From the NCBI GenBank assembly GCA_001778375.1, contig MFGV01000021.1:1-47913 (forward strand): a DNA stretch of 47,913 nucleotides, read 5' to 3'. The notes under the pieces are model-generated. The model was not told the DNA's origin. It did no database searches and saw only the letters and a list, made by a program, of their open reading frames with translations. Of the stretch, positions 33,882 through 43,846 are shown in pieces (within the stretch, counting starts at the first letter, position 1; every line of letters starts with the position of its first letter). Made by a program: the position numbers and the translations under genes. This DNA comes from Candidatus Firestonebacteria bacterium RIFOXYD2_FULL_39_29 (lineage in GTDB: Bacteria; Oederibacteriota; D2-FULL-39-29).

Positions 33882-33910
33882 TTGACTTTTAATGCTTTTG
33901 TTGTTAAAAT
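33882..33910 (+). promoter_or_regulatory. Promoter of the pilus/secretion operon
   Basis: TTGACT (33882-33887) and TAAAAT (33905-33910) are 17 bases apart. The start near 33917 lies just at the 5' edge of the GEMM aptamer, exactly where a riboswitch transcript should begin. Confidence 0.75.
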
Positions 33911-33917
33911 CTACTAG

Positions 33918-34004
33918 ACATCCGAAAAGGCACACTTGTCGTAAGGCGGGGTCGCAAAGCTACGGGTCCAGATGAAAGAGGCTGGATTGCCAAGCGCATC
34001 GATA
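33918..34004 (+). ncRNA. GEMM-I cyclic-di-GMP riboswitch aptamer
   Basis: The aptamer shows the GEMM hallmarks in order: AAAAGGCACAC, a hairpin capped by the GNRA loop GTAA (33941-33944), GGTCGCAAAGC (from 33950), ACGGGTCC (33962-33969), a variable loop, and GGATTGCCAAGC (33984-33995). GEMM-I RNAs bind c-di-GMP; one subgroup prefers cyclic AMP-GMP. Aligned by eye to the Vibrio Vc2 aptamer, the base at position 20 appears to be G, which fits c-di-GMP. The aptamer precedes an intrinsic terminator and the pilB-pilQ operon. Pilus genes are a known GEMM target class. Confidence 0.88.
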
Positions 34005-34026
34005 ACTTATTAATTTAGTTGCGAAC

Positions 34027-34068
34027 CGTCAAATTATCGCAGGATGCGGTAATTTGACGTATGTTTTT
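34027..34068 (+). terminator. Intrinsic terminator in the riboswitch expression platform
   Basis: CGTCAAATTATCGC (34027-34040) pairs with GCGGTAATTTGACG (34046-34059) over 14 bp including one G-U pair; the loop is AGGAT and TTTTT follows at 34064-34068. It lies 30 bases after the aptamer and 120 before pilB. Whether ligand favours or prevents it cannot be decided by eye; a weak competing pairing involving CGCA (from 33996) and TGCG (near 34020) is possible. Confidence 0.8.
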
Positions 34069-34092
34069 ATAATATTAAGCAATTCATTTAAT

Positions 34093-34173
34093 TCAGGTTC
34101 AGGGCAGTGAACCTGATTATGAAGAGAAGTTGGTTTATTGCGGGTAAGAGGATTTGTTTCAAAATATTTTGAA
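34093..34173 (+). promoter_or_regulatory. Additional hairpin and palindrome in the pilB leader
   Basis: TCAGGTTCA (34093-34101) and TGAACCTGA (34108-34116) form a nine-bp hairpin with loop GGGCAG. A perfect 16-bp palindrome TTCAAAATATTTTGAA (34158-34173) abuts the putative ribosome site AGGG. Neither is part of the GEMM platform. Confidence 0.5.
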
Positions 34174-34187
34174 TAGGGTCGGTCGAT

Positions 34188-35876
34188 ATGGATAAGCATC
34201 CGTTAGGTGAAATGCTTATACAGGAGAAGCTGATTACTCCTGCGCAATTGGAAAAGGCTATTGCTGAGCAAAAAGCCAGTAATAAACGCCTTGGTCATAC
34301 TTTAATTGATTTAGGTTATATCACTGAAGATGATCTTCTAAGAATACTTGGTAAACAATTAGACACACCTTACATCAACCTCAATGATGTTATAATCGAT
34401 CCCGAAATAATAAAATTAATTCCGGAAGACATTTGCAGAAGGTATAAAATTTTACCTTATAGTCAGGAAGATAATTCCGTTTATGTTGCAATGATAGATC
34501 CCCTGGATTTCCGGGTTATCAACGATCTCAAATTTTTGATTCATAAGGAAATTAAACCAATGCTTGCTAGTGCGAAAGCGCTGGCAAAATCAATTTCCAG
34601 ATATTACGGTCTGACAGATGAAATGCGTGATATGGTTAAGGAGATAGATAATAAGCTTCTTGATGATGGGGCCTGCGAAAGTGAGAAAGTAAATGAAATA
34701 TCTGATGATGCTCCTATTATTAAAATAGTAGACTTGATTATTATTAATGCGGTAAAAGAAAGAGCAACTGATATTCACATAGAGCCTTTTGAAAAGACGA
34801 TGAGAATACGATACAGAAAAGATGGAGTTCTTCATGAAGTGCCGGCTCCGCCTTTTCCGATTTATCCTGCAATGGTTTCACGTGTTAAGATTATGTCCAG
34901 GCTTGATATTGCTGAAACAAGACTTCCTCAAGACGGTCGTATTACAAAAAAAGTAACCGGAAGGGATATAGACTTTCGTGTTTCTATTGTTCCTAATCAG
35001 TTTGGTGAACGTATTGTTCTTAGGGTTCTTGACCGGGGCGCTACGGTGCTTGATTTGGAAAAGCTGGGTATGCAGGGCGAAGACTTAGTCAAATTTAATG
35101 AAGCTATCAACAAACCTTACGGTATGATTCTGATTTCCGGACCTACCGGTTCGGGTAAAACTACCACACTTTATGCTGCCTTAAATAAAATATATAATAC
35201 CGGCGAGAACATAATGACAATTGAAGACCCGATAGAATACTCTTTCTTTGGGATAGGACAGGTTGAAGTCAAAGAAGAAATAGGACTCACCTTCGCAAAA
35301 GTCCTGAGAAGTTTTCTCAGACATGACCCTGACATTATTCTCCTTGGTGAAATGCGTGATTTTGAAACTGCTGATATTGCGGTTAGAGCCGCTCTTACCG
35401 GCCATCTGGTGTTCTCAACTATTCATACTAATGATGCTCCAAGTTCTGTCACCAGACTCATTGATATGGGCATAGAACCTTTTCTTATTAATTCCTGTAT
35501 AGTCATGGTTATGTCCCAGCGTCTTGTAAGAAAAGCTTGTGAACATTGCAAAGAAGATTATATAATGACCGCTGATCAGCAATTGGCGGCGCTGGGGATT
35601 ATTATAAATAAAGCAGGCGCGAAGTTCTATAAAACCAGAGGGTGCGAGATTTGCGGCGGTTCGGGTTCAAGGGGCAGACTTGCAATCTATGAAATAATGG
35701 TTATGGACGGAGAGTTAAAAAATATGATTGCAAAAAGGGCTGAACCTCATGAACTTAAAGCTGCTGCTGTCAAAAATGGTATGCGGACTCTGTTTCAGGC
35801 AGGTATAGATCAAGCCTTAAAAGGCATGACTACGATTGATGAAATAATAAAAGTAGCAGGTACTGCCAATCAATAA
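34188..35876 (+). CDS. pilB: Type IV pilus/T2SS assembly ATPase PilB/GspE with tandem MshEN motif
   Basis: This hexameric ATPase powers pilus or pseudopilus polymerisation at the inner membrane. The 562-residue protein has Walker A GPTGSGKTT (318-326), Walker B with DPDIILLGEMRD (380-391) and a four-cysteine zinc site (C451, C454, C486, C489) typical of GspE/PilB. The N-terminus (5-57) matches the MshEN c-di-GMP-binding pattern: LGEMLIQEKLITPAQLEKAI ending at Q28, a five-residue spacer KASNK, then RLGHTLIDLGYITEDDLL ending at Q57. Copy 2 is canonical; copy 1 has Pro instead of the first Arg and Lys instead of Gly. It is the first gene of the riboswitch-controlled operon. Confidence 0.93.
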   Translation: MDKHPLGEMLIQEKLITPAQLEKAIAEQKASNKRLGHTLIDLGYITEDDLLRILGKQLDTPYINLNDVIIDPEIIKLIPEDICRRYKILPYSQEDNSVYVAMIDPLDFRVINDLKFLIHKEIKPMLASAKALAKSISRYYGLTDEMRDMVKEIDNKLLDDGACESEKVNEISDDAPIIKIVDLIIINAVKERATDIHIEPFEKTMRIRYRKDGVLHEVPAPPFPIYPAMVSRVKIMSRLDIAETRLPQDGRITKKVTGRDIDFRVSIVPNQFGERIVLRVLDRGATVLDLEKLGMQGEDLVKFNEAINKPYGMILISGPTGSGKTTTLYAALNKIYNTGENIMTIEDPIEYSFFGIGQVEVKEEIGLTFAKVLRSFLRHDPDIILLGEMRDFETADIAVRAALTGHLVFSTIHTNDAPSSVTRLIDMGIEPFLINSCIVMVMSQRLVRKACEHCKEDYIMTADQQLAALGIIINKAGAKFYKTRGCEICGGSGSRGRLAIYEIMVMDGELKNMIAKRAEPHELKAAAVKNGMRTLFQAGIDQALKGMTTIDEIIKVAGTANQ

Positions 35877-35882
35877 TTATTT

Positions 35883-35910
35883 AAAGGGGTTATAAAACCC
35901 TTTTAGGGTT
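35883..35910 (+). promoter_or_regulatory. Mutually exclusive hairpins between pilB and pilC
   Basis: AAAGGGGTT (35883-35891) pairs with AACCCTTTT (35896-35904). The AACCC of this arm can instead pair with GGGTT (35906-35910). The downstream ribosome site is GCGGAGG. The element could tune or process the mRNA. Confidence 0.45.
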
Positions 35911-35927
35911 AACGCGGAGGCTAAACA

Positions 35928-37166
35928 ATGCCAGTATTTTCGTATAGTGCTGTTGATTCAGACGGAAAAGCCTATAAAGGTGACGTTGACGCAGAGAGTA
36001 AAGATATTGCTGTAACAAAGCTCCAGCGTCAACGGTTAATGATCACCAGTATAAAAAGAAAATTGGCGATAACCCAGTTCTTCAATAAGAGCCTGTCCGG
36101 CGGGAATATCTCCCAGGATGATATTTTACTTTTTTCGAGACAGCTTGCAACTTTAGTTAAAGCCAGAATCCCTATTGAACAGTGTCTTGAAGTTTTGATA
36201 AATCAATTGGCTAATCCGCTGTTAAAGACAATAATTAAAAATGTCAGAAACGAGGTTATTTCCGGTACGCCGCTTTCTACCGCCATGAGTAAGTATCCCA
36301 AATACTTTGACAGTTTATATGTGGGCATGTTGAGGGCCGGCGAAGCTTCCGGTAAACTGCCGGAGATTCTTATTCGTACGGCAAAATATATGGACAGGAC
36401 ATCGAGGCTTCGCAATAAAGTAAAATCGGCAATGATTTATCCCATACTGGTCATTTTAGTCGGTATAGCCGTTGTGATATTTATTTTAACTTTTGTTATT
36501 CCCAAATTTCAAGATATGTATAAGACCATGGGCGGCAATCTGCCCTGGCTTACAAAAACGATGATTTACTTGAGTAACGATGTAATCGGTAAATATTTTT
36601 TAACTTTTCCTGCTGCTTTCTTTTCTTTTGGAATTATTATTTGCGGGATTTATTTTATTTCGAAACTTCTCGGCACGGAAAAAGGCAAATTTAAAAAAGA
36701 TGAAGTAATGTTACAGCTTCCTATACTCGGTGCTTATATGTCGAAAGTTATTTTTGCCAAATTTTCCCAGACTCTCGGTATTCTTGTAAATAACGGGGTG
36801 CCTATCCTTGAATCAATGGATTTAGTTTCTAAAACAGTAGGAAGTAAACCTGTCGAAAAGGCAATTCTTGATGCTAAAGAGAAGATTAAAGAAGGTGAAA
36901 AAATAGCGGATACCTTAAAAAAAAGCGCGTATTTTCCTGCGCTTGTTATCTCCATGGTGCATGTCGGCGAACAGACAGGTAAGCTTGGTGAAGTATTGGA
37001 GCAAATATCGGAGTTTTATGATGAGGAAGTTGAGATCTCAACAGCTGCTCTTACTGCGCTTATTGAGCCTTTACTTATTATCGGTCTTGCAGGTGTAGTT
37101 GCTCTTATTGTTATGGCTCTTTATCTTCCGGTCTTTAAAATGTACGGAAATATGAAAAAAAGTTAA
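35928..37166 (+). CDS. pilC: Pilus/T2SS inner-membrane platform protein PilC/GspF
   Basis: PilC/GspF is the polytopic platform on which the ATPase acts. The 412-residue protein has two T2SF domains (about 75-195 and 280-400), with the typical LFSRQLATLVKARIPIEQ and ILVNNGVPILESMDLVSKTVG, and MVHVGEQTGKLGEVLEQISEFYDEEV near the end. Membrane helices are near 175-200, 225-250 and 380-405. N-terminal FSYSAVDSDGKAYKGDVDAESKD is the family start. Length normal. CGGAGG precedes the ATG. Confidence 0.94.
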   Translation: MPVFSYSAVDSDGKAYKGDVDAESKDIAVTKLQRQRLMITSIKRKLAITQFFNKSLSGGNISQDDILLFSRQLATLVKARIPIEQCLEVLINQLANPLLKTIIKNVRNEVISGTPLSTAMSKYPKYFDSLYVGMLRAGEASGKLPEILIRTAKYMDRTSRLRNKVKSAMIYPILVILVGIAVVIFILTFVIPKFQDMYKTMGGNLPWLTKTMIYLSNDVIGKYFLTFPAAFFSFGIIICGIYFISKLLGTEKGKFKKDEVMLQLPILGAYMSKVIFAKFSQTLGILVNNGVPILESMDLVSKTVGSKPVEKAILDAKEKIKEGEKIADTLKKSAYFPALVISMVHVGEQTGKLGEVLEQISEFYDEEVEISTAALTALIEPLLIIGLAGVVALIVMALYLPVFKMYGNMKKS

Positions 37167-37195
37167 AAAGGATAAAATTAAAAAGGGGAGGCTTT

Positions 37196-37669
37196 ATGAA
37201 AAGAGGGAAAGGTTTTACACTGCTGGAACTGATGATTGTTATAGCGATTATCGGATTGTTAATAGCTATAGTAATACCGGATTTACTAAAGACGAGGGAG
37301 CAGGCGGAGATAGAATCCTGTAAGGCGTCGCTTCGAGGCGTGCAGTCAGCGCTGGAACTTTACTATACACATTACAAATATTATCCTGACAATTTACTGA
37401 CACCAATAAATGAAGGGTATCTGCAGGAAGGCGGCGACAAGGATCCGTGGGGCAGGGCGTACCGGTATCGTTTGGCTACCGGTTCCGGAGCTGCGAATGA
37501 ATCAGAAGGTGCAAAGACGGCGAATAACTACCTTATAGGAAGTGACGGACCGGATGCAAAGCAGGATACGGATGATGATGTTGAGCCGCCAATTAATACG
37601 AAACGGCATTCTTTTAAGAGCAATAAAACTTCTTCTGAATCAACCGGTGAGGGCGTTTCGGAGGAATAA
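37196..37669 (+). CDS. GspG-like major pseudopilin
   Basis: A 157-residue prepilin with a short basic leader, the prepilin-peptidase site G/FTLLELMIVIAIIGLL and Glu5 of the mature protein. The soluble part has the GspG features: a Pro/Tyr-containing turn, DPWGRAYRYR, and a calcium-loop-like GSDGPDAKQDTDDD. GspG is the major subunit of the T2SS pseudopilus, so this subunit argues for a secretion system rather than a classical pilus. The C-terminal 25 residues (polar, Lys/Ser/Glu-rich) extend beyond the usual end. GGGGAGG lies before ATG 37196. Confidence 0.88.
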   Translation: MKRGKGFTLLELMIVIAIIGLLIAIVIPDLLKTREQAEIESCKASLRGVQSALELYYTHYKYYPDNLLTPINEGYLQEGGDKDPWGRAYRYRLATGSGAANESEGAKTANNYLIGSDGPDAKQDTDDDVEPPINTKRHSFKSNKTSSESTGEGVSEE

Positions 37670-37859
37670 TTTGTTAGTGATTAAAGAAAACACAGCTTTT
37701 GACTTTTGCTGAATAAATGAAAGAAATTTTGGAAAGTAATGAAGATTTTAGCGGTTTTAAGACTCAATATTAATGGATAAAAAAGAAAGCCGATTAGGTT
37801 ATAAGGTACTTAAATTAAGCACCGGAAAAATGCAACAGCGAAGCAGGAGAGCAAAACCA

Positions 37860-38384
37860 ATGAGAAAAAGAGTAAAAAATAAAGGGCTTACACTGGTTGA
37901 GGTTCTTATTGCTGTTGCTTTTATTTCTCTGGTATATGCTTTTGTTATTCAGCTTTTCTTTAGCGGCTTCATGGATATTAACGTCGGAGATATCCAGGAA
38001 GAATCCGCGCGCCTTGCAAATAATGAAATGATAAGACTGTCAAGTATTGAGAACCCTCTTTATGTGGGCTTGCTTGAGATGCCGCAAGGCGGAGAGATAA
38101 TTGACAAGTTAAAAGCAGGGACAATGACGCCCAGTCAGCTGGTTGATGAAGGTATCGTTGTGCTGAAAACACTTCAGACTGTCGGGCAGATTCAGGATTC
38201 TTCAAATAACGAAGAAATAAGGATGTCAAGTGAAACCAGGGCTGATTTTACCAGAACAGTTGAATGGATGGTTATGGATGTAAATCCTGTTCTGGTCAGC
38301 ATTAAAGTAACGGTGAACTGGAGCGACCCTCGCGGTGAAATAAAAGACGGGGATTTTTTCCTGGAGACTCAGCTGTCAAATTAA
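37860..38384 (+). CDS. Minor pseudopilin (PilV/GspI-like)
   Basis: A 174-residue prepilin-type protein: KNKG/LTLVEVLIAVAFISLVYAF is the class III signal with Glu5 conserved, followed by a soluble domain of about 140 residues. Minor pseudopilins cap the pseudopilus. The frame is open back to 37773, but AGGAG (37845-37849) ten bases before ATG 37860 and the short leader favour this start. It lacks cysteines. Assignment to GspI versus GspH is uncertain. Confidence 0.78.
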   Translation: MRKRVKNKGLTLVEVLIAVAFISLVYAFVIQLFFSGFMDINVGDIQEESARLANNEMIRLSSIENPLYVGLLEMPQGGEIIDKLKAGTMTPSQLVDEGIVVLKTLQTVGQIQDSSNNEEIRMSSETRADFTRTVEWMVMDVNPVLVSIKVTVNWSDPRGEIKDGDFFLETQLSN

Positions 38385-38406
38385 TTTTTAGGAGATGTAC
38401 GTAGAA

Positions 38407-39321
38407 ATGAAAAAAACCTGTAAAAGGCACAAGGGTTTTACTCTTCTGGAGCTGATGATTGCTATGGGTATTTCCTCCCTCCTTCTTCTGGTTTTATATT
38501 ATGCTTATTTCCTTGCTCAGACATTCTTTTACATGGGTACTGATACCATTCAGGAACAAACATATGTGCGGAATCTTTTTTCTAAAATTTCAGAAGATTT
38601 GCAGTTTGCAAACCGTCTGAATTCTCTCGGAAATAATTGTGATGATTTGGAGTTTGAAATCTTTAACAGAACAGTAATTGATACCGATGCCAGTTCAAAT
38701 GATAAAACCGTGGAAGGTAATACTATTGCTTATTCTACTAAATCTTCCGGTGATTCCAAGTATATAATTCTTATGAAAAAGGTAGACAAATACGAATGGG
38801 TTTTGAAGTTTGGCCATAGCCAAAAGCCAAATGATAATGAATATCCCCTTGGTTATCCTGATGATATGCGTGATCCAAATGATGGCAAAAGACAGACAGA
38901 AACGGGAGAAGAAGAGGAAGTTCTTGAACAGGTTGATGGGAATGAATTTCTTATGAATACAATACAATTCATACCTTACGATCAAAAAGGAGAAAAGATT
39001 GAAAGCGCATCGGGATATGATTATAGTTCAATGAAAGCTTCAAGAAGCATCCGGATTGAGGTTGAATACCTGCTGAAAGGTGATTATGGTGATACGGCAA
39101 GATTAGCAACAAGAAAAAAAACAGCCACTGCGAATATTCTTTTTATAAGTTTTTCAATGCTTAGTACATCTACCGAAGAAGTCATGATTAATCCGGCTCC
39201 GGGTATTTTTAATATGTATTGCCTTGGCGATGTACCTGTAACATCTAAAAATAGCGCTTCAAAATATCTTCCCTGTACGGGCCTGAATGATTTTCAAAAG
39301 ATAAAGATAAGTATAAACTAG
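38407..39321 (+). CDS. Minor pseudopilin (PilW/GspJ-like)
   Basis: A 304-residue prepilin-type protein with KRHKG/FTLLELMIAMGISSLLLLVLYYAYF as the class III signal and Glu5. GspJ is about 200 residues, so this is longer, with an acidic insert around 160-185 (TETGEEEEVLEQVDGNE). ATG 38407 is preferred over ATG 38395 because AGGAG (38390-38394) touches the latter. It ends 14 bases before the PilM-PilN start. Confidence 0.78.
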   Translation: MKKTCKRHKGFTLLELMIAMGISSLLLLVLYYAYFLAQTFFYMGTDTIQEQTYVRNLFSKISEDLQFANRLNSLGNNCDDLEFEIFNRTVIDTDASSNDKTVEGNTIAYSTKSSGDSKYIILMKKVDKYEWVLKFGHSQKPNDNEYPLGYPDDMRDPNDGKRQTETGEEEEVLEQVDGNEFLMNTIQFIPYDQKGEKIESASGYDYSSMKASRSIRIEVEYLLKGDYGDTARLATRKKTATANILFISFSMLSTSTEEVMINPAPGIFNMYCLGDVPVTSKNSASKYLPCTGLNDFQKIKISIN

Positions 39322-39335
39322 AAAGGAGATTTAAA

Positions 39336-40994
39336 TTGGCTAAAACAACAAGCATAGGAATTGACATAGGCTACAACCAGTTAAAGGTTGTTCAGCTCAA
39401 AAAGACGTCAAATGGTGTCAAAATTGACAGATTTTACTTTGAAGATTACGGATTATCATCAAAAGAGCTTGATTCCCCTGGAATCCGTATGAAAGCTATT
39501 TCTCAGATATTAGGCAGGATATTCAAGGATTTAAAACCGGTTAATGTTGTTTTGGCTATCAGTAAATTTGAGGAAAATATCCGCACACTTTCAATGCCCA
39601 TAATGCTGGAAAAGCAACTCCGGGAAGCCTTGAAACTTGGAGGAAATCAGGAGTTTATCCCGTTTGATCTTAAAGAAATGATCTGGGATGTCAATATATC
39701 TCATTTATACAGAAGAAAAGAAGATGTAAAGAGTGATGGCAGGGAAAAAATGGATGTTATCTTTGCTGTTGCAAAGAAAGAAGTCGTAAATAATTATCTT
39801 GATTTAGCGGAAAAATTAAAGTTCTCGGTTGATTTTCTTGAGTCGAATGCTCTTGCCAGTCTCAACTTCTCCTGTTTTAATATGGTGATACCAAAAGACA
39901 AGGTCTGGGGTAAAATTGATTTTGGTTCGGAGACAACCGCAGTAAATGTGCTTGAAGGTGAAAGTTTAAAATTTGGTCTTAATGTTCCGTGGGGAATAAA
40001 TGATATTATAGAAGTAGTTCAGTCTTCCCTTTCCATGGACTGGTTGACTGCGAAAGAATACGTCAGTAAACTGGATTTTAGTGCGGGTTATACCGGCTCT
40101 GATGATCAATCTAAAAAGGTGTTTTCTGCGCTTGAATCGAAGATTAAGGATTTTTTAAGGCAGCTTAACGGGGCTTTTTCTTTCTTTGAAAGCAAGAGCG
40201 GCGGAAGTTCTGTTTCGGAAGTTATTATAAGCGGAGGCGGGTCCAAACTCGTAAATATCGGTAAATATATCTCGTCAAAGATCGGAAAAAACGTAAAAAG
40301 TGAAAATCAGATAAATAAAAATGTTATCAGTTATGATAAAGCAATAGAGTCCTCGCTTTTGGAAAACCTGCCTTTGCTTACTACCGCTATCGGTGCGGGA
40401 CTTCGTAATCTGTTGCAGGTAAAGAACAATATCAATCTACTTCCGCTTGAAATAATAATCGGGAGGAAGCTCCGGAGTCGAAGGTCTCTTATAATTGTTG
40501 TTGCTGTTTGTATTTTCCTGATTCTGATGCTTGCGACGGGATATAAAATGAAACAAAGATCGGATGTAATGTTGAAAATAGATGATATAACAGGAAAGCT
40601 TGATACCATGTCTTCCGATATTAAAGATCTTAAAAGGAAGAAGAAAGCAATAGACAGGTTGAAGATAATAAAAATAAGATATACCAAGCCTGAAACTAAG
40701 TTTAGAAAATGGTCGACTTATATATATGAGCTTAGCTCGATTGTTCCGGATAGAATGTGGCTTGAAACTGCGGAATGGAGTTCTCTGGGTTTTGACACTA
40801 CCGGTGCCTGCAAAGAGGATATTGTCAAGGAACTCTGCGATAACGGGGAAAATACGGAAAACTTTAAAAAACTTAAGAGTGTTAACACCAGGCAATTGGA
40901 GGATAGGACTGCTTTTAAGGTTTCTATCAGAGCAGAAAGAATACCTGCAGTCAAGACCAAAACTTCGGTTAGTTCGGCGGGAGGGAATAAATAA
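39336..40994 (+). CDS. pilM: PilM-PilN single-chain fusion (GspL-like architecture)
   Basis: PilM is an actin-like cytoplasmic protein that binds the N-terminal INLLP peptide of the membrane protein PilN; together they link the cytoplasmic ATPase to the periplasmic complex. Here both occur in one 552-residue chain. Residues 1-350 are PilM (IGIDIGYNQLKVVQLKK, KIDFGSETTAVNVLEG, EVIISGGGSKLVNIGKYIS). INLLP is at 366-370, a single membrane helix at about 380-403 (SLIIVVAVCIFLILMLATGY), then a periplasmic PilN-like domain with coiled-coil and DRMWLETAEW. GspL of T2SS has the same general layout. The start is TTG 39336, with AAAGGAG upstream and no better choice. It overlaps the next gene by one base. 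Confidence 0.88.
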   Translation: MAKTTSIGIDIGYNQLKVVQLKKTSNGVKIDRFYFEDYGLSSKELDSPGIRMKAISQILGRIFKDLKPVNVVLAISKFEENIRTLSMPIMLEKQLREALKLGGNQEFIPFDLKEMIWDVNISHLYRRKEDVKSDGREKMDVIFAVAKKEVVNNYLDLAEKLKFSVDFLESNALASLNFSCFNMVIPKDKVWGKIDFGSETTAVNVLEGESLKFGLNVPWGINDIIEVVQSSLSMDWLTAKEYVSKLDFSAGYTGSDDQSKKVFSALESKIKDFLRQLNGAFSFFESKSGGSSVSEVIISGGGSKLVNIGKYISSKIGKNVKSENQINKNVISYDKAIESSLLENLPLLTTAIGAGLRNLLQVKNNINLLPLEIIIGRKLRSRRSLIIVVAVCIFLILMLATGYKMKQRSDVMLKIDDITGKLDTMSSDIKDLKRKKKAIDRLKIIKIRYTKPETKFRKWSTYIYELSSIVPDRMWLETAEWSSLGFDTTGACKEDIVKELCDNGENTENFKKLKSVNTRQLEDRTAFKVSIRAERIPAVKTKTSVSSAGGNK

Positions 40995-42064
40995 TGGCTG
41001 CCCAAAATTCTAAAACACAAAAAAAGACAATTCTTGCTTTGCTCGAAGGTTATAACATCAGCAAGGTGGATTTGATAATTTATGCTTCCTGTCTTCTGGT
41101 TTTTGTTGTATCGGTTGCGATGTTCGTATTCTTTTCCGGAGATCTTGTTAAAAAGCAGAAGGATTACACCGAGTATTCGGAGGATTATGACAGTTCTCTG
41201 ATGATTAAGACGCAGGAGGCCCAGTTAACGGAGGCATTTTCTGTCCTGGACACGGCGGCTTTTGAGCTCAGAAATAAGTTCTTGTCGGAAAAACAGGTCG
41301 GTGATTTTAAAGAAGCTGTGAAAAACCTTGCAAAGAAATACGGTTGTGATAGAATGGATGCTACAGAAAGGTCAGAGCCTTCTGATACTACAGAGCTTTT
41401 CAAAGTTAAGTCAAAAGACGGAGTTGAAAAGGTTATTAGAATTAAATTTAAGAGAAGGTCTCTGGAGTTCAATTTCCAGATGACACTCGGTAATTTTTTC
41501 GGGTTTTTAAAATCATTTGAAACAAGTAATAAAATGCTGGAAATTCAGCCTTTCAGGCTGGCACAGGGTGATAATAAAAATTCTGTAAGACTTAATAATT
41601 TTAATGTTATGGTCTATGTCGTACCTTCTGAGCTGGATAAAGAGCTTGTGGATTTGATAGGGGATGTGACCTTTGAAGATCATATTTCTGATGTTTTGTT
41701 GGGAGAAAAAGCCCAGGTGGTACCTATAACAGAAAAAAGGATAATGGTGAAAGAAACTGTTAAGACAAAGGACGGAGAATGGAATATAAAGCCTATATTC
41801 AGGCCTATGGACCCTCCAAAACCAAAGCAGATTATCCCTCCGGGTGAACTCAGATATTTCATAGCTTCTAATCCTATTTATGGTTTTACTTATAATAATG
41901 ATACGAATAATGTCTACTATGCTATGGTTGGCGGGATTTTGAAAACAAGGGATAATAAAACTATTCCTAACTATGATTCTTTAAAATTACTTCAAATTAC
42001 GAAAATGGGTTTTATTCTGGAAATGGATGATGTAACAGGGGAGTTGTCGAAATTAAAAAGGTGA
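40994..42064 (+). CDS. PilO/GspM-like protein with possible PilP/GspC-like C-terminal domain
   Basis: PilO pairs with PilN in the periplasmic alignment complex. The 356-residue product has a membrane helix (about 25-48), a coiled-coil (55-115), and a ferredoxin-like PilO core around 115-215 (RRSLEFNFQMTLGNFFGFLKSFETSN). That is as long as a normal PilO. The remaining 140 residues contain a Pro/Lys linker and a small domain (about 285-356: GELRYFIASNPIYGF, YYAMVGGILKTRDNKTIP, LLQITKMGFIL) that looks like the beta fold of PilP or the GspC HR domain. The linkage PilN-PilO-PilP in two chains would be compact. The PilP part is inferred. Confidence 0.7.
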   Translation: MAAQNSKTQKKTILALLEGYNISKVDLIIYASCLLVFVVSVAMFVFFSGDLVKKQKDYTEYSEDYDSSLMIKTQEAQLTEAFSVLDTAAFELRNKFLSEKQVGDFKEAVKNLAKKYGCDRMDATERSEPSDTTELFKVKSKDGVEKVIRIKFKRRSLEFNFQMTLGNFFGFLKSFETSNKMLEIQPFRLAQGDNKNSVRLNNFNVMVYVVPSELDKELVDLIGDVTFEDHISDVLLGEKAQVVPITEKRIMVKETVKTKDGEWNIKPIFRPMDPPKPKQIIPPGELRYFIASNPIYGFTYNNDTNNVYYAMVGGILKTRDNKTIPNYDSLKLLQITKMGFILEMDDVTGELSKLKR

Positions 42065-42066
42065 TA

Positions 42067-42117
42067 AGTTTCATAAAACTTTGGGGGCTTGTGCCGGTAA
42101 CACGGTCTTATTGCCCC
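42067..42117 (+). promoter_or_regulatory. Structured leader upstream of the secretin gene
   Basis: Two hairpins: AGTTT/AAACT (42067-42071, 42076-42080) and GGGGC/GCCCC (42084-42088, 42113-42117). No T run follows. They may stabilise or separate secretin mRNA. A strong AAAGGAGG then precedes the secretin ATG. Confidence 0.4.
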
Positions 42118-42178
42118 TGATAGAGAAGGAGGTGTAGTCTCTTAAGTATTTTAAAAAAAATAAAAGGAGGAATGGCTG

Positions 42179-43846
42179 ATGAAAAGAATACTAACTGTAG
42201 TAGTCGCAATGCTGATTGGAAGTTTTGCATTTGCTGCTGATGTAAAGTTTGTGGAAGCGCCTATAGACTTCCCGAATACACCGGTAAAAGTAGCGCTCGA
42301 AACGGTGTTTTTGAAGTCAGGGGTTGCGTATGCTATAGAGGTGGCGGACATGGGAGTGTATGGTAACGTAACTCTTAGCATAACAGAAAGACAGGAACTT
42401 GACACCGTCTTGAATTTAATCCTGGAGCCGAAGGGTCTGCAGTTTACGGTAGATGCCGGCGGTATTTATCATGTAAAGAAAAAAGAAAAAGAGGACACAA
42501 AGGCTCCGAGAGTTACCAAGTTGTATGCGTTGACCTACGCGACAGCGGGTGAACTTGTAAGGCAGATGAAGTCAGTACTTACAAAAGAAGGAGTAGTCTC
42601 GGTGGATGTAGGGACAAACGCCCTTATTATTACCGATGTAGCGGAAGTATTTGAGGGAATTGAAAGTTTGCTAAAAGAATTGGATAACCCTGAAAGAAAA
42701 GCAAAGTTAATAGCAATAAAGGCGAAGTTATTAGAAACGACAAAGAAAACGGACACTCAAGTTTCAATGGATTTTCAGTATACACCTGCCTCTAAGATAA
42801 GTATGGGAGGCGAAGCGTTTTTAGACATAACTAGCCCGGGCAGATGGCTGGGAACGATGTACAAGTCGGGTAGTTCATTATTTGCATCACAAACAACACT
42901 AACAACAACGGTAGGAGCAGGAGCATCGACGTATGTAGGGGGAGCTTTTTTAGGTCCGTTTACCTATACTGATGGAATTAATAACAAAACGGAGTTTGAA
43001 ATGCTTGCGACCCAGGCTACGACCCATGTTGAAATGGTCGCAGATCCGGATGTTATAGTGGAAGATGGTACAGAAGCAAGAGTACAGATAGGATCAAGGG
43101 AACCGATTACATCTATGAACGTAGTTAGCGGTACGATAACGTATTCGTATACTTATCAGGATGTAAATATAATACTACAGGTAACTCCTCAATCCCAGAG
43201 AGACGGGACAATCAGTGTGCAGATAAACCCGCAGATGAACCAGATTGCAGGTTATGTTTCACCGCAGGAAGGAATGAGAATACCGGTCATAGATAACAGG
43301 GAGATAAGGACAAAGTTGTTTGTAAGTAACGGCGGAACGATAAGACTGGGAGGAATGATAAAGGATAGGGCGATGACTTCTGAAACGAAGGTTCCATTCC
43401 TTGGAGATATTCCGTTAATCGGAATGCTGTTTAAATCGTCAAATCCTGTAGTGGAAAAAGTGGATGTGAGCTTGTTTGTTAGCCCGCATATAGTAGATTA
43501 TGCGCCGCCAAGGTGTCAGAATACACCCTGGATAAGCCAGTATGAAGTAAAGGTACCGGGTGAGACGGATGTGTTGATAGACTGGAAATTGGACCTGCCG
43601 TTTGGAGCTAATGGAATATACAGCTACAATATATACAGAGATGTGCAGGTTATCACTGACTTAACAGATAGAAGGCCGTATGCAACAGGAATAAACGGAG
43701 ACAGTACGAGCTGGATGGATATGAGCAGGAAGAGAAGGGGTCAGACGTACTACTATGTAGTTACGGCAGTTAATCCGTCAGGAATGGAGCAAGCAATAGA
43801 TCCTTCGGGAAAGAATAACGCTGTAATCACTATTCCCGATAGATAG
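42179..43846 (+). CDS. pilQ: Secretin PilQ/GspD family with C-terminal fibronectin-III-like domain
   Basis: Secretins form the outer-membrane channel for pili and T2SS substrates. The 555-residue protein has a signal peptide (1-19), an N0/STN-type domain (about 24-98), an N1-type domain (105-165: KLYALTYATAGELVRQM), a Ser/Thr/Gly-rich stretch, and the secretin core with the hallmark VPFLGDIPLIGMLFKSSNPV (from 405) and VSLFVSPHIV. Unlike PilQ or GspD it continues about 100 residues with a fibronectin-III-like fold (VLIDWKLDLPFGANGIYSYNIYRD, YYYVVTAVNPSGM). Codon choice between about 42840 and 43840 (many GTA, ACA, ATA) looks different from its neighbours. Last gene of the operon; a strong terminator follows. 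Confidence 0.88.
   Translation: MKRILTVVVAMLIGSFAFAADVKFVEAPIDFPNTPVKVALETVFLKSGVAYAIEVADMGVYGNVTLSITERQELDTVLNLILEPKGLQFTVDAGGIYHVKKKEKEDTKAPRVTKLYALTYATAGELVRQMKSVLTKEGVVSVDVGTNALIITDVAEVFEGIESLLKELDNPERKAKLIAIKAKLLETTKKTDTQVSMDFQYTPASKISMGGEAFLDITSPGRWLGTMYKSGSSLFASQTTLTTTVGAGASTYVGGAFLGPFTYTDGINNKTEFEMLATQATTHVEMVADPDVIVEDGTEARVQIGSREPITSMNVVSGTITYSYTYQDVNIILQVTPQSQRDGTISVQINPQMNQIAGYVSPQEGMRIPVIDNREIRTKLFVSNGGTIRLGGMIKDRAMTSETKVPFLGDIPLIGMLFKSSNPVVEKVDVSLFVSPHIVDYAPPRCQNTPWISQYEVKVPGETDVLIDWKLDLPFGANGIYSYNIYRDVQVITDLTDRRPYATGINGDSTSWMDMSRKRRGQTYYYVVTAVNPSGMEQAIDPSGKNNAVITIPDR

Follow-up and report, generated by a model that had tools for sequence, protein, structure and literature searches.

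A type IV pilus operon in Candidatus Firestonebacteria carries two elements for sensing a single second messenger. On balance, we favor the reading in which a class I c-di-GMP riboswitch controls the operon, its motor PilB is a c-di-GMP receptor, and the two arms have opposite signs. Both elements are conserved among relatives, the RNA has a comparative fold, and the calculated pairings of its leader are mutually exclusive. By prediction, c-di-GMP would bind both elements, turn the RNA switch OFF in vivo and activate the motor. Two-level control had been proposed by a sequence-only reading that specified no switch sign. Its two sensing elements stand and are conserved, but its caution is better placed on the RNA arm (U at position 92, weak antiterminator) than on the protein.

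Locus and operon organization

The DNA analyzed here (the window, 47,913 nucleotides) is contig C21 of a 3.0-Mb Candidatus Firestonebacteria draft genome (MAG), labelled G000; G001–G008 are eight relatives in the same order with orthologous pilB. The window PilB is 74–93% identical to the PilB of eight Candidatus Firestonebacteria records. Running from pilB to the secretin gene (34188–43846), the operon spans about 9.7 kb, in agreement with the roughly 10 kb, pilB first, described from the sequence alone. Gene order is pilB, pilC, a GspG-like pilin, a weakly ComGE-like protein, a prepilin-like protein, a pilM-like protein, a protein without family and the secretin; enolase follows. The features are:

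33882–33910, +, sigma-70-like promoter, TTGACT-17-TAAAAT (motif; conserved in orthologous leaders)
33918–34008, +, GEMM-I aptamer with 3′ flank, P1 to P1 33920–34003 (RF01051, model R1, covariation)
33929, +, position 20 (Vc2 numbering), G as in c-di-GMP-type aptamers (alignment of leaders)
33956, +, position 47, A (alignment of leaders)
33999, +, position 92, U in the window and G001 (comparative fold)
34000–34008, +, continuation of the P1 3′ strand, antiterminator 5′ strand CGATAACTT
34031–34039, +, antiterminator 3′ strand AAATTATCG, within the terminator 5′ arm
34027–34068, +, intrinsic terminator, 15-pair stem and T-rich tail
34188–35876, +, pilB, extension ATPase, 562 aa (PF00437, 447 bits)
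34200–34271, +, c-di-GMP motif 1, PilB residues 5–28, PLGEMLIQEKLITPAQLEKAIAEQ (NF053729)
34287–34358, +, c-di-GMP motif 2, PilB residues 34–57, RLGHTLIDLGYITEDDLLRILGKQ (NF053729)
34359–34619, +, MshEN C-terminal subdomain, PilB residues 58–144 (PF05157, 79.2 bits)
35928–37166, +, pilC/gspF-like platform protein (PF00482)
37196–37669, +, GspG/pilin-like protein (PF07963, PF08334)
37773–38384, +, possible minor pilin (weak ComGE-like match)
38395–39321, +, prepilin-like protein (PF07963)
39336–40994, +, pilM-like protein (PF11104)
40994–42064, +, operon protein without a family match in profile searches
42179–43846, +, secretin, pilQ-like (PF00263, 134 bits)

The promoter (TTGACT at 33882–33887, 17-nt spacer, TAAAAT at 33905–33910) matches 10 of 12 consensus positions. 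Shuffling the region gives a mean of 1.2 sites of equal quality, so the motif alone says little; it is, however, conserved ahead of the orthologous pilB genes, and the promoter was already part of the sequence-only reading.

The GEMM-I aptamer and position 92

Searching the window with RF01051 gives a match at 33919–33994 of 39.3 bits against a gathering cut-off of 35 (E = 2.6e-4), which bears out the GEMM-I assignment made earlier; orthologous copies score up to 58.9 bits. Model R1, built from the orthologous leaders, gives the window aptamer 96.6 bits, a score to be read with the window sequence being part of its training. Structure built from orthologues places the aptamer at 33918–34008, with P1 to P1 at 33920–34003, and the 33918–34004 first proposed is thus a better estimate than the Rfam end.

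Eight leaders aligned with MAFFT share a three-helix junction composed of P1 (AU.CG/CGAU), P1b, P1c and P2/P3, in which 91.6% of cells are paired and nine pairs have changed on both sides; no shuffle reached as high. Slid controls favor this fold, since it was sketched on the window row while the alignment was visible, but the double changes are independent of that. The GEMM-I fold is almost certainly real. The register that Rfam assigns to the 3′ half of the window aptamer was rejected on covariation, the missing P1 and energy: it pairs only 62.9% of P2/P3 cells, has no P1 and comes out about 12 kcal/mol less stable. The c-di-GMP-I-GGC variant (RF03167) was also rejected, at 38.6 bits against a cut-off of 59 and with CGCAAA in the window copy where the consensus has CGCGAA. 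Position 20 is G (33929), not the A that we take to define cGAMP (GEMM-Ib) riboswitches and that is presumably present in the Geobacter metallireducens pilM cGAMP riboswitch. Over the pilB start, a weak fluoride-riboswitch match (34181–34249, 20.6 bits, cut-off 34) is probably chance.

The ligand contacts G20 and A47 are present in the window aptamer. Position 92, in Vc2 numbering the base just 5′ of the P1 3′ strand (33999), is U in G000 and its nearest sister G001 in the comparative fold; G002, G004, G005, G006 and G008 have C. The window has C there only under the Rfam register for its own copy, and Rfam's own alignments of G002, G004 and G006 also give C. Elsewhere in the G000 and G001 genomes, GEMM-I copies seem to have kept C92; in several G000 copies, where a P3 insertion shortens the Rfam match, it was read by eye further 3′. 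A U at position 92 would be expected to reduce affinity for c-di-GMP to some degree or to shift preference. The Vc2 double mutant G20A/C92U is quoted at 4900 nM versus 0.011 nM for the wild type (PMC9049102).

Conservation of the leader

Six of the eight relatives' operons (G001, G002, G004, G005, G006 and G008) have the aptamer at the same site, with the RF01051 match ending 105–158 bases 5′ of pilB; in all of these but G001 it is the sole RF01051 match. The G007 leader holds a degenerate copy, and G003 has promoter and pilB with no recognizable aptamer. G000 and G001 are 92% identical over the aptamer and 94% over the promoter, versus 40% 5′ of the promoter and 39% between the terminator and the ribosome-binding site. 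Their differences in P1c and P3 preserve pairing, one of them through a double change. Judging by sequence, the Firestonebacteria leaders form a natural series that runs from intact aptamers through altered and decayed ones to outright loss.

Beyond the order, model R1 matched none of the 36 further species searched within the phylum and found no GEMM-I next to PilB at 60 other PilB loci; being derived from the Firestonebacteria pilB-leader family, R1 would miss remote aptamers. GEMM-I is present in 158 of 258 Desulfobulbia genomes, and the approximately 30 best loci read there showed no motor downstream. Two Desulfobulbia loci (L168 and L184) have a solitary MshEN gene 5′ of a strong GEMM-I aptamer, the gene ending about 60–80 bases before it; the encoded protein has a likely membrane segment and no ATPase.

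Expression platform

The terminator reported from the sequence alone is found, with its stem at 34027–34059 and a T-rich tail, interrupted in the window, running to 34068. Its competitor is most evident in G004, where strand CCGAUAACUUA, comprising C92, C93 and the remaining P1 strand, can form 11 uninterrupted, perfect pairs with UAAGUUAUCGG of the terminator region. The corresponding antiterminator of G001 has nine perfect pairs. In the window the antiterminator 3′ strand has A34033, which is G in both G001 and G004.

By forced-fold energies, for G004 the antiterminator is the minimum (−48.4 versus −38.5 kcal/mol for aptamer plus terminator), for G001 the two are near balance (−48.1 versus −49.5 kcal/mol), and for the window the antiterminator is disfavored (−29.3 versus −38.4 kcal/mol; minimum −46.7). 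Terminator probabilities are taken from G004 and the window, those of G001, G006 and G008 being left out because the pairs chosen for them were poorly placed. With a notional −10 kcal/mol on P1, the G004 terminator pair rises from 0.00 to 0.97 (0.969) while the antiterminator falls from 1.00 (0.999) to 0.03. The window terminator pair stays at 0.999 with or without the ligand bonus, and its antiterminator is negligible; since the terminator prevails regardless of ligand, equilibrium folding predicts that this copy does not switch. The antiterminator calculated for G006 is another one, made with the P2 3′ strand; its probability of 0.75 drops to 0.003 with ligand at a stage when the terminator 3′ arm has yet to be made. 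The G008 antiterminator is weak (0.03–0.13), and a search of the G002 leader found none.

In relatives the P1 strand also builds the antiterminator, so ligand should trigger termination. The strands come in the same order in Cd1, an OFF switch in which the ligand-pairing C87 is captured by the antiterminator (PMC9262584). An OFF sign is probable for the family. Whether the window copy still responds to c-di-GMP is evenly poised, and its weakened antiterminator means that the switch may be blunted.

The predicted c-di-GMP-binding domain of PilB

PilB scores 634.5 bits against TIGR02538, slightly under the equivalog cut-off. Its N-terminus carries the two 24-residue motifs noted earlier, separated by exactly five residues (KASNK) and matched over residues 5–57 by NF053729, a model of MshE-related c-di-GMP-binding domains (74.9 bits, cut-off 38). 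The Pfam family called MshEN (PF05157), against which the sequence-only reading would have had the region aligned, covers the C-terminal subdomain that follows. The domain is homologous over its whole length to MshE (5HTL, E 4e-20) and to PilF and PilB structures.

The motif consensus has (R/K/L)LG, Gly at position 10, hydrophobic positions and Gln at position 24. Motif 1 retains LG, the hydrophobic positions and Gln; as noticed earlier, it lacks the usual Arg and Gly, replaced by P5 and K14. Motif 2 departs only by a Tyr at one hydrophobic position. The motif 1 substitutions had raised the concern that binding may be weak, a caution that known binders make less pressing. Thermus PilF GSPII-B does without the position-1 Arg, having Lys and Leu there and a Kd of 6 nM, and GSPII-C has Pro at position 1 yet binds (PMC11731258). 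Myxococcus xanthus PilB, a reported binder (PMC11656802), has Asn at the motif Gly position in our comparison. No tested precedent was found for Pro and Lys together in one motif. In all nine orthologues, including G003 and G007, both motifs retain LG (or IG), the hydrophobic residues and Gln, and a paralogous PilB of G000 (contig C86) has lost the motif. Retention of the motifs where the aptamer is absent (G003) or degenerate (G007) indicates that the protein level is held more strictly than the RNA. PilB is likely to bind c-di-GMP.

Signal supply and other GEMM-I loci

Eight GGDEF domains with intact GG[DE]EF were read in G000, along with nine PilZ matches; an EAL search of the genome gave no match. 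Hypr cGAMP synthases have Ser or Thr at the specificity position (PMC6456294). None of the eight GGDEF domains read does, and a Hypr enzyme was rejected on that basis. Three of them (L122, L126 and L128) have Asn for Asp at this base-specificity position (GHxxGN).

Several further GEMM-I loci occur in G000 and G001. The G000 locus L006 (contig C78) has a GEMM-I-like aptamer from 1501 that falls below the cut-off, at 32.2 bits, because of a P3 insertion. Its gene at 1867–2946 fuses a PilZ domain (PF07238, 53.5 bits) to an exosortase-type acyltransferase (TIGR03694), with a short ORF starting MHAWCCK in between; by its sequence, the locus is a candidate second two-level locus in G000. Downstream of their aptamers, eight loci (L002, L004, L005, L006, L044, L045, L046 and L047) share an almost identical gene start, GGAGGAACGATGCGTGCTTGGTGCTGTAAA (MRAWCCK...), in most cases ahead of PorV/PorQ-family proteins, which looks like a duplicated aptamer-plus-gene-start cassette. 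Long P3 insertions seem to be present in L002, L003, L005 and L006 of G000 and to cut the Rfam match short; the actual 3′ end is probably GCTGAACTGCCGAT, some way beyond it. GEMM-I-like aptamers also precede a CheY-like response regulator in G000 (L007, 32.0 bits) and G001 (L049, 35.0 bits); at L007 a PilT-like ATPase lies on the opposite strand.

Alternative readings and proposed mechanism

U92, the A34033 that breaks the antiterminator and a terminator probability of about 1.0 with or without ligand would all suit a decayed switch in G000, with a terminator-locked leader that attenuates almost constantly at any c-di-GMP and PilB alone in control; so would the degenerate or lost aptamers of G007 and G003 beside retained PilB motifs. 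However, the G000 and G001 aptamers are far more alike than their flanks outside promoter and terminator, and their changes preserve pairing, so the fold still seems to be under selection after C92U, and equilibrium folding leaves out co-transcriptional kinetics. Decay is possible but doubtful. U92 also bears on the identity of the ligand, since position 92 pairs one ligand base: G20/A47/U92 might favor an adenine opposite it, for example in cGAMP reversed relative to GEMM-Ib. The Vc2 double mutant G20A/C92U accepts c-di-AMP (PMC7288161, PMC9049102). Against this, the GGDEF domains read lack the Hypr Ser/Thr (PMC6456294), a G-U wobble would still permit c-di-GMP, and U92 occurs in two genomes only. 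A changed ligand is highly improbable, as is the corollary that such a natural aptamer has a shifted or broadened ligand beside a motor still binding c-di-GMP, RNA and protein then reading different signals.

With an ON switch, c-di-GMP would cause read-through and both levels would act in the same direction, as in C. difficile. ON precedents are the class II switch of C. difficile pilA1 (PMC6200980) and the GEMM switch of Geobacter pilM (PMC9262584). Both use other expression platforms, and here the aptamer's own 3′ strand competes against a downstream terminator arm, the order of the OFF switch Cd1; we regard an ON sign as quite improbable. Control by RNA only would require a Firestonebacteria PilB that fails to bind c-di-GMP. 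The Pro and Lys that occupy two consensus positions of motif 1 could be taken that way, as could PilF GSPII-A, a non-binder with one degenerate motif (PMC11731258). Yet the differences are confined to two non-essential-looking positions, and the hydrophobic, LG and Gln positions are intact in nine orthologues, unlike in the paralogue, making this reading unlikely, though less so than an ON switch.

Opposed two-level control, the preferred reading, would have an ancestral arrangement that is best seen in G004. In the unliganded RNA, the P1 3′ strand with C92 and C93 would pair with the terminator 5′ arm, and the antiterminator so formed would allow transcription of the operon. Binding of c-di-GMP would lock P1 in the aptamer, the terminator would form and new synthesis would stop. 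Meanwhile c-di-GMP on the PilB N-domain would support extension by existing motors, an activation borrowed by analogy from MshE; in C. perfringens PilB2, ATP hydrolysis is unchanged by c-di-GMP (PMC11656802). As the relatives predict OFF, RNA and protein would act in opposite directions, an incoherent feed-forward that could give a burst of pilus activity while no new machinery is made. In G000 the RNA response may be blunted by U92 and the weakened antiterminator, and the protein arm looks intact. Since the leaders of the series all precede pilB, and thus one and the same protein receptor, the contribution of each sensing level becomes testable, as does the question whether a single substitution at position 92 makes a GEMM-I switch less responsive or redirects it to another ligand.

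Comparison with known systems

The closest likeness is to the C. difficile pilA1 operon, in which a c-di-GMP riboswitch precedes a type IV pilus operon and the motor PilB has a predicted MshEN-type c-di-GMP-binding domain (PMC6200980, PMC8653836, PMC9765702, PMC11656802). There, however, the RNA is of class II (Cdi-2-4), ON and ahead of the pilin gene, whereas in Firestonebacteria, an unrelated phylum, it is of class I, predicted OFF and ahead of the motor gene. If the OFF sign is true, one second messenger would halt synthesis of the pilus machine yet keep its motor active, the reverse of the C. difficile logic. Cd1 (c-di-GMP-I) of C. difficile shares the class, an antiterminator made of the aptamer 3′ strand including the ligand-pairing C, and a ligand that favors the terminator (PMC9262584); it differs in its target, and the window copy has U at position 92. 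The pilM riboswitch of Geobacter metallireducens (GEMM-Ib) likewise places a GEMM-I fold ahead of pilus genes, but it is a cGAMP sensor and ON (PMC9262584). On the protein side, Vibrio MshE, Thermus PilF and Myxococcus PilB are extension ATPases with the same N-terminal tandem of 24-residue motifs and 5-residue spacer (PMC5013675, PMC11731258, PMC11656802); the window PilB differs in the Pro and Lys that replace the usual Arg and Gly of motif 1, and its binding is predicted. What differs from the C. difficile pilA1 precedent is the class I RNA, its predicted OFF sign and the natural aptamer series.
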